Shown: positions 6,406-57,338 of the stretch, piece by piece
How the letters are laid out: each line of letters begins with the position of its first letter
Numbering within the stretch: the stretch's first letter is position 1
Assembly (NCBI GenBank): GCA_017431745.1
Contig: JAFRKK010000003.1
Coordinates: 67,927-131,926 of the forward strand
Source of the DNA: Candidatus Saccharimonadota bacterium
GTDB lineage: Bacteria; Patescibacteriota; Saccharimonadia; Saccharimonadales; Saccharimonadaceae
Length of the DNA: 64,000 bases
Direction of reading: 5' to 3'
Notes under the pieces: generated by a model
Told to the model about the DNA's origin: nothing
What the model saw: only the letters and a program-made list of their open reading frames with translations
Database searches by the model: none
Made by a program: the position numbers and the translations under genes

Positions 6406-6435
6406 TTGACGTGGAAATTATGGGTGTGATATAAT
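6406..6435 (+). promoter_or_regulatory. Promoter of FISUMP gene 1 leader
   Basis: TTGACG at 6406-6411, an 18-nt spacer and TATAAT at 6430-6435 with TGA upstream. The divergent ldh promoter lies about 40 nt away. Confidence 0.85.
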
Positions 6436-6436
6436 G

Positions 6437-6651
6437 GTGGTGCGATAGTTTGAAATTTTAAGATAATGGAAACCAAATTTTATTATTTGGAACTTAGTCG
6501 AGCTTGTTAACGGCATCGTTAGGATGTTTGAGCTTGACTTGGTTTTCCAAATTAGAGTTTCAGACTATCGCACCTAGCGGTGCCGTTTTTGTGAGGAAAC
6601 CTCAAAAGAAGTGTACCGCCTAGGGAATAGCAACTACTAAGAGAGGTATAC
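6437..6651 (+). ncRNA. Structured leader RNA with competing pairings (copy 1)
   Basis: The RNA starts near 6440. P1 pairs 6440-6455 with 6558-6573 (GTGCGATAG / CTATCGCAC). An inner stem pairs AGTCGAGCTT with GAGCTTGACT and carries loop motif A, ACGGCATCGTTAGG (6510-6523). Segment B, CCTAGCGGTGCCGT (6573-6586), is followed by TTTTT and can pair with A over 14 bp (two G-U) or with A', GTACCGCCTAGG (from 6613). The ribosome site GAGAGGT lies just before the ATG at 6652. The same plan precedes the other two FISUMP genes. Confidence 0.8.
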
Positions 6652-8397
6652 ATGAAAAGCATGAAGAAGTGCGTAGTCACTAAAGAAAAAATAAGCAAAA
6701 GCATTAAGCTGGATAAACGACGAAGCAATAGGCGACGTTCCAGCGCCGGTATGTTTTACACTTCTTCTGCCGGCGCTGTGACCTCGCTTATTTGTTTTGG
6801 CAATCAGAAAATGCTATCCAGGACACGGGTCGCTCCGGCCCGTCGTCACGGGCGGAGCGCCCTAATTCTCGGTCGTAACCTCCGAAATGTCCTGTATAGC
6901 ATTTTCCTGATTACCTTACCAGTACTCTTTGTTCATCAGGCTCACGCCACCGCCAGCACTCTCACCATCAGCGTCACAGACAGCGTAGCACTTAATATCA
7001 CTTCTATTAACAGTACTGGTACCTTTGCTACTTCAGACACATCAACCAACAATATTAGCATTAAAACCACTAATGGTACTGGCTATACACTAGGCATTAA
7101 AGCTTCAACTGAAGGCAGCAATGCCCTAAATGGAGCAAATAGTACTAGCATCCCCTCCCACACAGTATCAGCCGGTATCAGTGAAGCTACTTATAGTACA
7201 GATTCTACTTACAATAACACTTGGGGCTATAGACCAAGTAAACTAAACTCCACAGCAAACTCTAACTATCTCCCAGGCCCTACTAGTGCCAGTACAGCTA
7301 TCACTCTAGATAAAACTACTTCAGCTAACCCTACTTCTGCCAACAACTATAACCTAGCTATTGGCGTAAGAGTTGATGGTAATACTGCTGCAGGAGCTTA
7401 CTCTAATACCTTTATCATAACCGTAGTAGCTAACCCATCAATCTATTCCATCACCTACAACAAGAACACTACAGACACAGTATCTAACATGCCAACTAAC
7501 GTAGTAAACCAAGAAACATCTAGTGAAACAGTCACCCTAGCAAATAATACTCCAACTAGAACTGGCTACACTTTCCAAGACTGGTGTACAGTACAAGTAG
7601 CAGACGGAGCAACCTGTACTGGTACAGCCTACTCACCTGGAAGTACCTGGACCATAGATCAGACAGCTTCAACCAACTCCTTAACTCTTTATGCTAGGTG
7701 GAAAGCTTCAACTAACAAATATTGTACTAACTGGTCTACTTGTATGCAAAACACTACTAGTACAAAACCAGCTTGTGGTTCTACTATGACTGATGGTCGT
7801 GACGGCGCTACTTACACCACCGCCACCATAGGCAGTAAATGCTGGATGACTCAGAACCTTCGCTTCACCGGTGATGAGCTCAAAATAGATGAAACTAATA
7901 TTGATGAAGATAAGAATTTAACATGGGATGATCTAACTAATGGCTCCATCGAAGGTACGCCATGCTGGGGATACGGAAGTGTTTTTGTCACAAGCAATAT
8001 TAGAGGAGATGGTTATACCAAGCCATGCAAACACGACTCTAACGATACCTCTACTGGGGTTTGGTATAACTACGCAGGCGCAACGGCAGCCACCATAACT
8101 GGAATTAGCAATTCTGCTACTGCTAATTATAGCATTTGCCCAAAAGGCTGGCGTCTACCCACTGATAACGAGCAGAGTAGTATTCAAAGTCAAACTACCA
8201 CCTATTCTCCTATTTACGGCGGATATTACACTAACGGTAACCTTAATGAAGCTTCTACACGCGGACTGTGGTGGTCTTCCACTGCATATAGTAGTTTCGT
8301 CCGTAATCGCCTCTATTATGCCGAAGGTTCTTTAGTAACTTATTTTGGCGCTGCGCGCTATGAAGGGCTCTATGTCCGCTGCGTTAGGGATTCTTAG
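6652..8397 (+). CDS. Secreted FISUMP-domain surface protein 1
   Basis: 581 residues. An unusually long Lys/Arg-rich N-terminus (1-60) precedes the signal-peptide core (about 82-97, VLYSIFLITLPVLFV) and a likely AHA-TA cleavage site near 103. A Ser/Thr/Asn-rich stalk follows, then an InlB/Listeria-Bacteroides type repeat (about 266-350, ending LTLYARW), then a Fibrobacter-succinogenes-major-paralogous-type domain (about 370-581) with GSKCWMTQNLR, CPKGWRLPT, WWSSTAY and a final LYVRCVRD. Ligand unknown; such domains are extracellular. A palindromic element (6802-6912) runs into the signal peptide. Coding strand is C-rich, unlike the G-rich neighbours. Confidence 0.85.
   Translation: MKSMKKCVVTKEKISKSIKLDKRRSNRRRSSAGMFYTSSAGAVTSLICFGNQKMLSRTRVAPARRHGRSALILGRNLRNVLYSIFLITLPVLFVHQAHATASTLTISVTDSVALNITSINSTGTFATSDTSTNNISIKTTNGTGYTLGIKASTEGSNALNGANSTSIPSHTVSAGISEATYSTDSTYNNTWGYRPSKLNSTANSNYLPGPTSASTAITLDKTTSANPTSANNYNLAIGVRVDGNTAAGAYSNTFIITVVANPSIYSITYNKNTTDTVSNMPTNVVNQETSSETVTLANNTPTRTGYTFQDWCTVQVADGATCTGTAYSPGSTWTIDQTASTNSLTLYARWKASTNKYCTNWSTCMQNTTSTKPACGSTMTDGRDGATYTTATIGSKCWMTQNLRFTGDELKIDETNIDEDKNLTWDDLTNGSIEGTPCWGYGSVFVTSNIRGDGYTKPCKHDSNDTSTGVWYNYAGATAATITGISNSATANYSICPKGWRLPTDNEQSSIQSQTTTYSPIYGGYYTNGNLNEASTRGLWWSSTAYSSFVRNRLYYAEGSLVTYFGAARYEGLYVRCVRDS
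6802..6912 (+). repeat. In-frame palindromic element at the signal peptide of FISUMP 1
   Basis: Left arm 6802-6825 (AATCAGAAAATGCTATCCAG...) is complementary to right arm 6888-6912 (...TATAGCATTTTCCTGATT). The core holds GGACACGGGTCGC, an inner hairpin around CCCGTCGTCACGGG, and CTCGGTCGTAACCTCCGAA. It encodes residues about 51-87; the right arm encodes the first half of the hydrophobic core of the signal peptide. Core nearly identical to the second pheT copy in inverted orientation. Confidence 0.88.
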
Positions 8398-26876: not shown

Positions 26877-26930
26877 TCATAATATGTGAAAAATGAGGGT
26901 TGCGGAGGGGGGATTTTTTGTGATATAATG

Positions 26931-27153
26931 GTAGTGCAAACAATTGGTAATTTATACATTAGTAATTTTAGTATTAAAGGCTTGAGCAGTAGAATGGCAT
27001 CGTAAGGAAGTCGTTGCTCAAGTTGGTTAATACTAATGTGGGTTATCGATTGTTTGCACCCCTTGCGGTGCCATTTTTATGTACGCCTTTTGTAAATATG
27101 GCACCGTAAGGGGGATAAAGGCAATTAAAAGGCAAAGTGAGGTAAATAAAGCC
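26931..27153 (+). ncRNA. Structured leader RNA with competing pairings (copy 2)
   Basis: Promoter TATAAT at 26924-26929 with TGA. P1: GTGCAAACAAT (26934-26944) / ATTGTTTGCAC (27049-27059). Inner stem CTTGAGCAG / TTGCTCAAG carries loop A, ATGGCATCGTAAGGA (26994-27008). Segment B, CCCCTTGCGGTGCCAT (27059-27074), ends in TTTTT and can pair with A (two G-U) or with A', ATGGCACCGTAAGGGG (27098-27113). GAGGT before the ATG serves as ribosome site. Confidence 0.82.
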
Positions 27154-28851
27154 ATGAAGTCAATTAATAAAAAGATTATAATCTCGGGCATGTGTTATGC
27201 CTCACCATTATTGTTGTTACTAGTATTATTCTCTTCTTGTAATATCGCCCATGCTGTCACCTTTGAATCCGAACAAGGCGTCGCCTTCACCTTTAATCCT
27301 ACAGTCACTATTTCTATTACGGGTGGTACTGGAGCAAGCAGTGATGGACTCACTATCACTAACCTCACCCCAGGTGATGTAAAGGATAGCAATATCATCA
27401 CAGTCAGCGCCTCTGCCAATACTCCACTAGGCTATAGCCTAAGTAGTACAGTAGGTAGTAGTACCTATAACACCACAGAACTCAGAAAAGATGGTACTAG
27501 TACTGCTAATAAGTTCACTAACCTCACTGCTAATGTCTCATCCCTTTCTAACTTCTCGGATAACACTTGGGGCTATTCCTATTCTACAGACTCCGGCTCT
27601 ACCTGGATTAGTGGTGATATTACTAGCACTACAGCAACTGGCTATAATGGCCTACCTATCTACACCTCGTCTAGCCCTATCAAACTCATTAACTCCAGTG
27701 CTGCTGGTTCCTCATCCATTAAGTTCAAAATAGGCGCTAAAGCCAGCACCAGCCAAATCGCTGGTACTTATAATAACGTGATTAACTTTATTGGTACAAG
27801 TAAAGTAGTAACTACTACCTACACTATTAACTACAATGATCCTAGTGGAGAAGCTACCGTTATGCCTACACCTAACCCATTACAAGGTACTGATACTACA
27901 GGTAATGCTGCAGTAAAGATTAGTTCTACTGTACCAGTACGAGACGGCTACATGTTTAAAGGCTGGTGTACATCCCAAACAAGTGACGATACCTGCTCCA
28001 GTGACGTAGTCCAACCAGGCGGCCTCGTAGCCCTCAACCCTGGCACTTCATCTACCACCGCTACGGTTAACAAGACTATCTATGCGATGTGGAAGAGCAA
28101 TCTTAAGATGCAGAACCTAGATCCGTCTAAGTGCACCACTACTGCAACCACTGTTATAGACAATCGCGATAGCGAAGAGTATCTCGTTCAACGCCTTGCT
28201 GATGGCAAATGCTGGATGCTAGACAACCTAAGACTAGACCTCACTAACTCCACAATCCTAAACGGCTTAACCACCTCTAACACCCACGTGGATTCAGCCT
28301 CTCTCACTTCCCTCAAATCCGGTAACCGTAGTGCTGGTAACCAATATGCCAGTAGTGGCTTCGTTAAATGGGATTCTAGTAGTAGCTCTAGTGTCTACAA
28401 CCAGGCCAAAGCCAATGCAGACTACAAAGACACTACTACCACATCATATGGTGAAGGTAGCGGTAAAATAGGCGTTTACTACAACTACTGTGCTGCCTCT
28501 GCTGGCTCTTATTGCTACGACAGTGGCGCCGGTACCGGTAATGCTTCTTACGATCTTTGCCCAGCTGGTTGGCGCATGCCAACAAGCGGCTCCTCCGGTG
28601 AATACCAAGCCCTTTATACAGCCTATAGTAGTGATGTCGCAAGCTTCCTAAACGCTCTTTCTACGCCTCTCTCTGGTTTCTTCTACGATGGCTCGGCGAA
28701 CTATCAGGGCACGGACGGCTACTTCTGGTCTTCTACTTACATCAATGCTTACAGTATGTACCGCCTCTACGTCAATTCTAGCAATGTGAATCCGTTCGGC
28801 AGCTATAATCGCTACTACGGTTACTCTGTTAGGTGCTTACTGGGTTCTTAG
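27154..28851 (+). CDS. Secreted FISUMP-domain surface protein 2
   Basis: 565 residues from ATG 27154 (AGTGAGGTAA ribosome site; an upstream in-frame ATG lies inside the leader hairpin). Signal peptide 1-34 with a Cys in LLVLFSSCNIAHA. Ser/Thr-rich extracellular region; InlB/Listeria-Bacteroides type repeat (about 225-320, ending TIYAMW); FISUMP domain (about 330-565) with GKCWMLDNLRL, CPAGWRMPT, YFWSSTYI and a final YSVRCLLGS. No sorting signal or C-terminal anchor is visible, so attachment is unexplained. Paralogue of the genes at 6652 and 55881. Confidence 0.85.
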   Translation: MKSINKKIIISGMCYASPLLLLLVLFSSCNIAHAVTFESEQGVAFTFNPTVTISITGGTGASSDGLTITNLTPGDVKDSNIITVSASANTPLGYSLSSTVGSSTYNTTELRKDGTSTANKFTNLTANVSSLSNFSDNTWGYSYSTDSGSTWISGDITSTTATGYNGLPIYTSSSPIKLINSSAAGSSSIKFKIGAKASTSQIAGTYNNVINFIGTSKVVTTTYTINYNDPSGEATVMPTPNPLQGTDTTGNAAVKISSTVPVRDGYMFKGWCTSQTSDDTCSSDVVQPGGLVALNPGTSSTTATVNKTIYAMWKSNLKMQNLDPSKCTTTATTVIDNRDSEEYLVQRLADGKCWMLDNLRLDLTNSTILNGLTTSNTHVDSASLTSLKSGNRSAGNQYASSGFVKWDSSSSSSVYNQAKANADYKDTTTTSYGEGSGKIGVYYNYCAASAGSYCYDSGAGTGNASYDLCPAGWRMPTSGSSGEYQALYTAYSSDVASFLNALSTPLSGFFYDGSANYQGTDGYFWSSTYINAYSMYRLYVNSSNVNPFGSYNRYYGYSVRCLLGS

Positions 28852-55565: not shown

Positions 55566-55641
55566 AAACATAAGAGTTTTCCACAGGAAGATACAAAACC
55601 AGCTAATATTTAAACAAATGTTCAGAAAGTATGATAAAATG

Positions 55642-55880
55642 GTATTGCAATACTCAAGCATTTAATAAATGCCAAATCCATTTGTTCTTTAGCGGGCATA
55701 ATTTAAAAGGTGAACATGGCGCCGTAAGGAACCAACTTTTTAGGTTATGTCGTAAGATTTGGCTTAAATGGTTGAGTATTGCACCCCTTGCGGTGCCATT
55801 TTTATACCCTCACTTAGATGCTTCATGTAGGAGTAAAGATGGTGCCGTAAGGGGGAGCAAATAAACTAAGTGAGGTAATA
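55642..55880 (+). ncRNA. Structured leader RNA with competing pairings (copy 3)
   Basis: -10 TGA-TAAAAT at 55635-55640. P1: TGCAATACTCAA (55646-55657) / TTGAGTATTGCA (55772-55783). A: ATGGCGCCGTAAGGA (55716-55730). B: CCCCTTGCGGTGCCAT (55784-55799) plus TTTTT. A': ATGGTGCCGTAAGGGG (55839-55854). Every difference from copy 2 keeps pairing through G-U or compensating pairs. AGTGAGGTAA before the ATG. Confidence 0.82.
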
Positions 55881-57338
55881 ATGAAGCAACAAAAGAATAA
55901 TAGTCAAAAAATTATACATAGAAGGCAGGTTCCATCCATCATAGCCGGAGCCTTGCTACTAGTCACGCTCCTAACTGGCACTATACTAACTAATTCCGCC
56001 GTCAAAGCGGACAACACCAAAACCGATTCTTCCAACGTCTCAGTCACCGTCAATTCCGCCTGTACCATGAAGGGTGGTAGTGACGGTACAAGCGATACAG
56101 GAAATAGCATTTATAGTGCCACTATAGACCCCGGTACCGTAGCTGAAATCAACGGTAGCAAACTCACTACCATTTGCAACGATCCTAACGGTTACTCACT
56201 TTATGCTATCGGCTATTCTAATGATGCTTATGTTACGCCCACTAACACTCAAATGATTGGTGCGTATGGCAATATCAACACAGGCACTAATACCACTGGT
56301 GACAACAGTAGCTGGTCTATGAAACTAGCTGCAGCATCCGGTGTTACTCCACCCACCATTCTCAATAATTTTGACAACTACCACGTTGTCCCGGCTACCT
56401 ATACTCAAATTGCTAAATATACCTCCTCTACTTCATCTGGTACTGCTGCTGGCGCTGCAGTTCAAGCCAAATACCAAGTCTATATTAGCAGTGGCCAATT
56501 GGCCGGCACTTACACCGGCAAAGTCAAGTATACGATGGTTCATCCTAACAATGCTGCTGCACCTAGTACCAAGACCATTGCCGATGCTACTTATATGCAA
56601 GAAGTCGGCTCCTGCCCAGCCACGCTCACCACCGGTATGGTCTATCAGCTAACAGACAATCGTGATAACCAAAAATACTTAGTAGCCAGACTCAAGGACG
56701 GTAACTGCTGGATGCTCCAAAACCTCAAGCTCGGTCGCTCTACCTCAACCCTCACATTAACTCCTACTAACTCAGACGTAGGTAGCAATTACGTCCTAGA
56801 CAACAAACTCCCATCCCCAGGTAAATTCCATGCCTACACCATAGATGGAGTAGCCAACCAAAACAACAGCACTGAGTATTACTGTACTGGTGATGGCACG
56901 GCTAGCGACTGGGAATCCTGCTACTATAACTGGTACACTGCCACGGCTGGTACTGGTACTACATACATCGCCACCCAGGGCCAAAACGTTAATAATAGTA
57001 TCTGTCCAGCCGGCTGGACCTTGCCTACTCAACCTCAGTTCCAACAACTCTACAACCAATACCCATCCGCTGCCGAGATGCTAGTAGCAAATCCAACTGC
57101 TACTAAGGAAAACACCCCAACCGTAGGCCAAGTTACTAATACTCCGGGTTTCCTCCTTAGCGGCAACTACAACACTGGCGGTGCCTACGGTCTGGGCTCC
57201 AACGGCCGCTACTGGTCTCGTACCGCGTGCTCAGCGCAGCTCGGGCACTACCTGTACGTGAATACTTCGGGCGTCTACCCTGAGGACGCCAACTACAAGT
57301 ACCTCGGCGTCGCAGTCCGTTGCGTGGCGAATTCCTAG
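55881..57338 (+). CDS. Secreted FISUMP-domain surface protein 3
   Basis: 485 residues. Signal peptide 1-43; Ser/Thr/Asn-rich beta region (about 45-230); FISUMP domain (about 240-485) with DGNCWMLQNLKLG, CPAGWTLPTQPQF, YWSRTACSAQ and final VAVRCVANS. No InlB-type repeat, unlike the other two. The last 39 codons (from about 57219) use G or C in the third position in 31 cases, unlike the rest of the gene. Confidence 0.85.
   Translation: MKQQKNNSQKIIHRRQVPSIIAGALLLVTLLTGTILTNSAVKADNTKTDSSNVSVTVNSACTMKGGSDGTSDTGNSIYSATIDPGTVAEINGSKLTTICNDPNGYSLYAIGYSNDAYVTPTNTQMIGAYGNINTGTNTTGDNSSWSMKLAAASGVTPPTILNNFDNYHVVPATYTQIAKYTSSTSSGTAAGAAVQAKYQVYISSGQLAGTYTGKVKYTMVHPNNAAAPSTKTIADATYMQEVGSCPATLTTGMVYQLTDNRDNQKYLVARLKDGNCWMLQNLKLGRSTSTLTLTPTNSDVGSNYVLDNKLPSPGKFHAYTIDGVANQNNSTEYYCTGDGTASDWESCYYNWYTATAGTGTTYIATQGQNVNNSICPAGWTLPTQPQFQQLYNQYPSAAEMLVANPTATKENTPTVGQVTNTPGFLLSGNYNTGGAYGLGSNGRYWSRTACSAQLGHYLYVNTSGVYPEDANYKYLGVAVRCVANS

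Follow-up and report, generated by a model that had tools for sequence, protein, structure and literature searches.

A candidate transcription attenuator with a loop-to-terminator pseudoknot in the leaders of Saccharibacteria surface-protein genes

The window analysed here is a stretch of 64,000 nucleotides from a Candidatus Saccharimonadota genome. It contains three genes for surface or exported proteins, each preceded by a structured leader, and all of the features described lie on the forward strand. The first leader precedes a FISUMP surface-protein gene (6652-8397; Pfam PF09603, 36.6 bits, cut-off 33.9). Its -10 box, TATAAT (6430-6435), is followed 5 nt downstream by the beginning of helix P1, which places the expected transcription start at the P1 base. 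Folding and alignment place the core element at 6441-6590 (covariance model match G000:C3:74367-74516, where G000 is the genome of the window), and this element comprises P1, P2, a U-rich side hairpin, P3 with its loop A, P1', segment B and a U-tract. Loop A (AACGGCAUCGUUAGG, 6509-6523) is the complement of B (CCUAGCGGUGCCG, 6573-6585, defined by sequence and alignment), and the two form a duplex of 15 bp with an energy of -26.1 kcal/mol. The U-tract follows at 6586-6590. A short hairpin, T (GCACC-UAGC-GGUGC, 6570-6583, -6.8 kcal/mol), is a candidate intrinsic terminator stem that is found family-wide; in this copy the 3' base of P1 serves as its 5' arm. Further downstream are A' (6612-6625), a weak partner of B that is not significant alone (locus L057, p 0.06), and the ribosome-binding site (6640-6646).

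The second leader has a -10 box, TATAAT, at 26924-26929 and a core element at 26935-27078, again placed by folding and alignment (model match G000:C3:94861-95004). Loop A (AUGGCAUCGUAAGG, 26994-27007) pairs with B (CCUUGCGGUGCCA, 27061-27073, from sequence and alignment) over 15 bp at -25.3 kcal/mol. Hairpin T, detected in a terminator scan, is GCACC-CCUUGC-GGUGC (27056-27071, -6.7 kcal/mol), and the U-tract occupies 27074-27078. A' at 27098-27114 is a near-perfect partner of B (locus L062, p 0.00), and the ribosome-binding site is at 27137-27142. The gene behind this leader (27154-28851) encodes an exported surface protein with a FISUMP-like C-terminus, ...YYGYSVRCLLGS, without a Pfam FISUMP match.

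The third leader begins after a -10 box, TAAAAT, at 55635-55640. Folding and alignment give a core element at 55646-55803 (model match G000:C3:123572-123729), in which loop A (AUGGCGCCGUAAGG, 55716-55729) forms a duplex of 14 bp and -26.8 kcal/mol with B (55786-55798, from sequence and alignment). Hairpin T has the same sequence as in the second copy, GCACC-CCUUGC-GGUGC (55781-55796, -6.8 kcal/mol), and is followed by the U-tract at 55799-55803. A' is found at 55839-55855 (locus L056, p 0.00) and the ribosome-binding region at 55866-55875. The gene (55881-57338) is the second FISUMP surface-protein gene that is confirmed by Pfam (PF09603, 50.1 bits). In this copy the spacer that follows the putative terminator contains CCUCACUUAG (55808-55817), which is perfectly complementary over 10 nt to the ribosome site CUAAGUGAGG (55866-55875), a match that is significant for its own UTR type.

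The initial annotation of this DNA had described leaders at these three places, and the promoter, P1, loop A, B with its five Us, A', ribosome site and gene were located in each. It had also called all three genes FISUMP. This holds for genes 1 and 3, which pass the Pfam cut-off (Fib_succ_major, FISUMP). Gene 2 falls below the cut-off; it encodes an exported protein that has the C-terminal VRC signature in common with the FISUMP genes.

The three window leaders fold 8.5-9.1 standard deviations better than their own dinucleotide shuffles (z -8.5 to -9.1). An alignment of 17 copies extracted from the same genome has two-sided changes in 12 of the 16 pairs of P1 and in 5 of the 13 pairs of the long A:B helix. 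In this alignment 91% (91.3%) of the P1 and A:B cells are paired, compared with 39-51% when the partners are slid, and its covariation score was reached by none of 500 shuffles. P1 had been proposed to be kept in form and not in sequence, and A:B to be a pseudoknot with compensatory changes; both proposals are borne out. A covariance search across Saccharibacteria, which had been suggested as a check, recovered homologues in which P1 and A:B covary. Among 33 elements, mostly from other genera, 91.6% of the P1 and A:B cells are paired (40-52% when slid), with 92 two-sided changes over the two helices.

A segment complementary to B is present within the loop in all 121 of the elements first collected. 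These elements were found by models that include A and B, so its presence is partly a matter of selection, the compensatory changes are not. Own A:B partners pair better than swapped ones (z 17.8, to which relatedness among the elements contributes). The mean duplex has 14 pairs and an energy of -24.5 kcal/mol, a value that does not yet include a pseudoknot penalty.

In the window's genus only A and the two As 5' of it are strongly conserved in the loop, in other genera the tail after A is partly conserved as well. The loop bases of the U-rich side hairpin are also partly conserved. A pairing between this side-hairpin loop and the A-rich flank of A was considered and rejected, as own partners pair no better than swapped ones (z -1.7).

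The position of the leader is regular. In 143 of 158 elements the end of a -10-like hexamer lies 5-6 nt ahead of P1, and the extended -10 TG is found in 122 of the 158. An open reading frame with a ribosome site lies within 150 nt downstream on the same strand in 102 of 116 loci, at a median distance of 54 nt. A stand-alone small RNA that has its own promoter and terminator and merely adjoins genes is highly improbable on these counts, and also because the many copies each have their own gene. The promoter, compact fold and terminator would define an RNA of 120-150 nt, as such a small RNA would need, and many genomes have a single copy. DNA-level readings, such as an integron attC-like site or an inversion, were considered as well, but helix pairs that change in compensation, a constant promoter spacing and the location of the genes speak for RNA. 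The leader is almost certainly a real class of cis-regulatory RNA.

Hairpin T was overlooked in the initial annotation. In all three window copies it reads GCACC-loop-GGUGC and connects the 3' base of P1 with B immediately upstream of the U-tract. When the last 27 nt of each element were folded, a local hairpin of -4 kcal/mol or lower that ends within 3 nt of the U-tract was found in 152 of 159 elements. The mean energy in this test was -7.5 kcal/mol, compared with -4.7 kcal/mol when the 5' sides were shuffled. A hairpin followed by a U-tract is the established form of an intrinsic terminator. The form of T with its U-tract, between promoter and gene, matches an ordinary one, and we infer from this form that T is likely to be an intrinsic terminator.

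The arms of T change together. In the window's genus the hairpin is GCACC/GGUGC; in other genera B is GGUGUC and the 3' base of P1 is GACACC or ACACC, which form an equivalent local hairpin directly before the U-tract. The arm combinations GCACC/GGUGC, ACACC/GGUGU and ACACC/GGUGC occur 93, 17 and 13 times, and GCACC/GGUGU does not occur (0). Further variants are GACAACC/GGUUGUC (L258), GACGACC/GGUCGUC (L259), GACACC-ACGCGU-GGUGUC (L257 and L261) and GACACC-UUGUG-GGUGUC (L240), and in each of these five loci loop A is altered and its pairing is kept. Between L258 and L259 an A-U pair of T is exchanged for G-C with a matching A to G change in loop A, and thus a single position of B keeps both of its partners. 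The core of T is mostly near-invariant, so its covariation represents fewer independent events than that of A:B, and part of the contrast between arms coincides with the division into genera. Thirteen elements of the window's genus have lost the outer pair of T, and several GGCG variants have a broken core.

P1 and A:B thus share strands with T and all three covary, which is the pattern of an attenuator. A:B and P1 both take strands from T, which suggests that A:B together with P1 would be the ON form and T the OFF form; this reading also explains why the base of P1 resembles B. We propose that transcription would start at the base of P1 and that the RNA would fold into P1, P2, the U-rich side hairpin and P3, with A exposed in the P3 loop. 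As B emerges it would face two mutually exclusive partners, the 3' base of P1 and loop A. Pairing with the former would give hairpin T followed by five Us, an intrinsic terminator, so that the gene is OFF and an RNA of ~145 nt is released. Pairing with the latter, a long-range pseudoknot of ~10-15 bp, would keep P1 closed and T unformed, so that the polymerase reads through and the gene is ON. The balance between the two may be set by a ligand, a protein, an ion or folding kinetics. P1, A:B, T and the promoter position have comparative sequence support, as does the presence of a gene after the leader at most loci; termination by T, antitermination by A:B and control of the choice by a signal are the predicted parts of the mechanism.

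On this comparative evidence, the assignment of T as terminator and A:B as antiterminator is probable. The A:B duplex is far stronger than T, as would be required of an antiterminator (mean -24.5 compared with -6.8 kcal/mol, with no pseudoknot penalty included). Several observations count against the mechanism. Apart from the near-invariant core and the broken pairs of T described above, formation of T costs P1 only 3-4 bp, A:B abuts the U-tract too and could itself terminate, and the positive relation that docking would lead one to expect between the length of P1+P2 and that of P3 is absent (rho -0.20). A length ruler for docking was rejected on this last result, though the mean lengths, 24 bp against 13 plus about 14, would fit a U-turn.

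That A:B abuts the U-tract, and that T is weakened in some elements, leaves room for the reading implied by the wording of the initial annotation, in which the A:B pseudoknot is itself the terminator helix. T would then be incidental, and A' would rescue B in transcripts that escape. A:B is GC-rich, covaries and runs directly into the U-tract (UGGC:GCCA then U5), it is kept where T is weakened, and A' would be given a simple job. T is, however, a standard terminator hairpin in nearly all elements and covaries in distant homologues, and an ON state would be missing if the two helices both acted as terminators. B of the other genera also retains GGUGU, the match to ACACC of P1, even at the price of a G-U wobble in its pairing with A (26 of 33 sequences). 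We therefore consider termination by A:B unlikely, and the preferred reading is the inverse, that A:B prevents termination by T.

A' had been presented as forming with B an alternative hairpin close to the ribosome site. This pairing is supported. It is significant in 77 of 112 loci (p<=0.02 against shuffles), about 70% of those tested, and own B:A' partners outscore swapped ones with a z of 9.4, to which relatedness among the elements contributes. It is weak in copy 1 and not universal, and A' was not recognised in the homologues from other genera. A' lies after the U-tract and therefore cannot decide termination. These patterns indicate that A' is an addition at the level of the genus and not a core part; in the window's genus it may take B over and hold it in the full-length mRNA.

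A translational switch, in which pairing of B with A' or with upstream sequence would expose or hide the ribosome site, has these well-supported A' loci and the perfect spacer match of copy 3 in its favour. Pairing between the spacer (U-tract to A') and the ribosome site is significant in just 4 of 19 UTR types (p<0.05, median p 0.455), and general masking of the ribosome site by the spacer was rejected. Since many members also lack A', such a switch is very unlikely, and transcription attenuation through T and A:B remains the preferred reading.

The leader is present in ~22 copies in the 744 kb (0.74 Mb) genome of the window, that is the three of the window and at least 19 elsewhere. A scan of the genome with the B pattern gave ~18 candidate loci, and covariance model R1 gave 21 matches, to which the later model R3 adds 2. 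The matches at the end of contig C13 and the start of C6 overlap; they represent a single copy split between contigs and were counted once. The copy number is approximate because contigs break inside leader-gene junctions (C5:1-127, C10:1-127, C6:1-141 and the C13 end). The ends of C5 and C10 have an identical 127 bases, and near-identical paralogues exist.

One gene of the family in this genome (L032, G000:C1:100416) represents a natural deletion. It has lost P1, P2, P3 and loop A and has kept the promoter, B immediately after it, and A'. The start of the gene is nearly identical among several paralogues (window gene 6652, L037, L039, L043, L049, L256 and L262; MKSMKKC... with RRSSAGMFYTSSAGAVTSL), and in these same paralogues the sequence from P1 to P3 is almost unrelated. 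Either the leader evolves far more rapidly than the start of the coding sequence, or it is swapped as a unit.

In a search of 100 relatives the element was found in 28 genomes, nearly all of the same genus, with up to 31 matches per genome. A DNA pattern scan of named genomes gave almost only Candidatus Saccharibacteria, many of them from animal gut metagenomes. With a broader model the element was also identified, in single copy, in further genera and families of this order, and model R3, which was built from other-genus copies, matches 86 of 393 genomes and 39 of 156 genera of the order. The claim that the leader is a shared cis-regulatory element is supported. R3 gave no matches outside the order in a phylum-wide sample of 287 genomes. 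Model R2 gave one weak match outside the order (G588, E 6.9e-5), in a sequence (L234) without a convincing arrangement. Leaders with Saccharibacteria-like surface genes are also found in rabbit-gut assemblies labelled Oscillospiraceae, Dysosmobacter or Clostridia (L143, L147, L151, L158, L159 and L175), these are most likely mis-binned Saccharibacteria contigs.

All 20 of the readable genes after leaders in the window's genome look like genes for exported proteins, and most of them have a FISUMP domain or a FISUMP C-terminal signature. The leader is not an obligate partner of FISUMP; two genomes (G004 and G047) have more than 30 FISUMP matches and zero leader matches, and the number of FISUMP copies does not vary with the leader. 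The genes after the leader in other genera are diverse and include TM2-like and other small membrane proteins, uncharacterised exported proteins and a DNA methylase. Very similar leaders precede unrelated genes in L214 and L215, which belong to the same genus, and in L218, L222 and L224, which belong to different families. This suggests that the leader has been re-used or moved as a regulatory cassette.

The downstream genes are without a metabolic theme, which counts against a metabolite as the signal. The initial annotation had called the leader riboswitch-like; for ligand sensing we found no positive evidence. A strict metabolite-binding riboswitch, with a small molecule in the junction or a loop, would be compatible with the attenuator. 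The aptamer-like fold with its pseudoknot and overlapping terminator, the single copies before varied genes in many genera and the conserved loop bases of the U-rich side hairpin all agree with it. Most metabolite pockets have strongly conserved positions, unlike the loop of the window's genus, which conserves little outside A, and we regard a strict metabolite switch as rather doubtful. Because of this poor conservation we consider a signal from a protein, an RNA, an ion or kinetics no less likely. Gating by temperature, magnesium, the speed of transcription, a trans RNA or an RNA-binding protein, which is also compatible with the attenuator, has a chance only a little short of even. Conservation is found mainly at the bases that pair with B, and a long docking helix would naturally be sensitive to ions, temperature and kinetics; the conserved loop of the side hairpin is left without explanation by such gating.

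The leader had been said to belong to no known RNA family, and searches of Rfam 15 agree with this. Only tRNAs scored above the gathering threshold in the window, and permissive scans gave only sub-threshold matches. In 20 homologous loci the same library identified only RNase P and one tRNA, located elsewhere in the loci.

Several known leaders have related designs. Fluoride and ZTP riboswitches control transcription; their pseudoknot lends stability to the aptamer and, through a shared strand, prevents a terminator hairpin from forming, which makes an ON switch. The proposed mechanism resembles them in that a pseudoknot would exclude a strand-sharing terminator hairpin and turn the gene ON. 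It differs in that the pseudoknot is ~10-15 bp long and joins the P3 hairpin loop to the 3' arm of the terminator, and the fold is unrelated, with no Rfam match. In the cobalamin riboswitch, L5 and L13 form a kissing loop. The leader likewise pairs an aptamer loop with the downstream expression platform, whereas its pairing is much longer, the base of P1 overlaps the terminator and there is no Rfam match. T-box leaders share with it the competition between terminator and antiterminator, and a UGGNACCG-like string is found in A' and A. Membership of the T-box family was rejected, as there is no Rfam T-box match, the UGGN string is not invariant (A has the variants GGGC, AGGC and UAGC) and the genes are not linked to amino acids.

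In the literature covered we found no such leader described; the motif tables of a large microbiome RNA survey (PMC8040213) may hold an unnamed entry. Judged from its sequence patterns, the family is best labelled a putative new class of 5'-leader transcription attenuator that is common to many genes. An architecture in which a long covarying helix lets a hairpin loop capture the terminator's 3' arm would extend the known attenuator designs.

Two reverse-transcriptase genes are present in the window's genome. Each lies in a cassette that contains a FISUMP-type target gene, an unidentified open reading frame, the reverse transcriptase and an inverted template repeat (G000:C1:100300-104500, L271; G000:C6:31300-35200, L272). 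The variable repeats, at the 3' ends of these target genes, differ from their templates almost exclusively at adenines, with 19 of 19 differences for TR1/VR1 and 21 of 24 for TR2/VR2. The reverse transcriptase, the template repeat and these adenine-directed differences identify the cassettes as diversity-generating retroelements. Such elements are already known in Patescibacteria (PMC8144416), and a term search of that paper gave no mention of such a leader.

Compared with template 2, two leader-bearing genes outside the cassettes, at ~22.9 kb of C10 and ~59.4 kb of C1, have 16 of 16 and 23 of 24 of their differences, respectively, at adenines. Window gene 3 has an older-looking match to this template (TR2) at 57141-57326, with 23 of 40 differences on template adenines. 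Both cassettes appear also to diversify genes elsewhere in the genome, and the sequence comparison indicates that at least some of the leader-controlled genes are retroelement targets. Several leader genes resemble the target genes of PMC8144416 in having template-related variable regions with adenine-directed changes. The leader itself, however, also precedes unrelated genes in other genera.

Little is known about gene regulation in ultrasmall, host-dependent bacteria. A switch on ~22 genes in 0.74 Mb would amount to a major layer of control; many of these genes encode variable surface proteins with possible host contact. Tentatively, and with a chance somewhat below even, the leader may represent an undescribed class of RNA sensor of episymbiotic Saccharibacteria. 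A pseudoknot of ~10-15 bp between loop and terminator would act as antiterminator, and the sensor, copied 20-30 times per genome in some species, would gate retroelement-diversified surface proteins by one signal, possibly host-derived. Finding this signal would open a direct way into host sensing by such bacteria. The gene at L032, which adjoins the first reverse transcriptase as its target, is the one without the switch, as if it had been freed from it.
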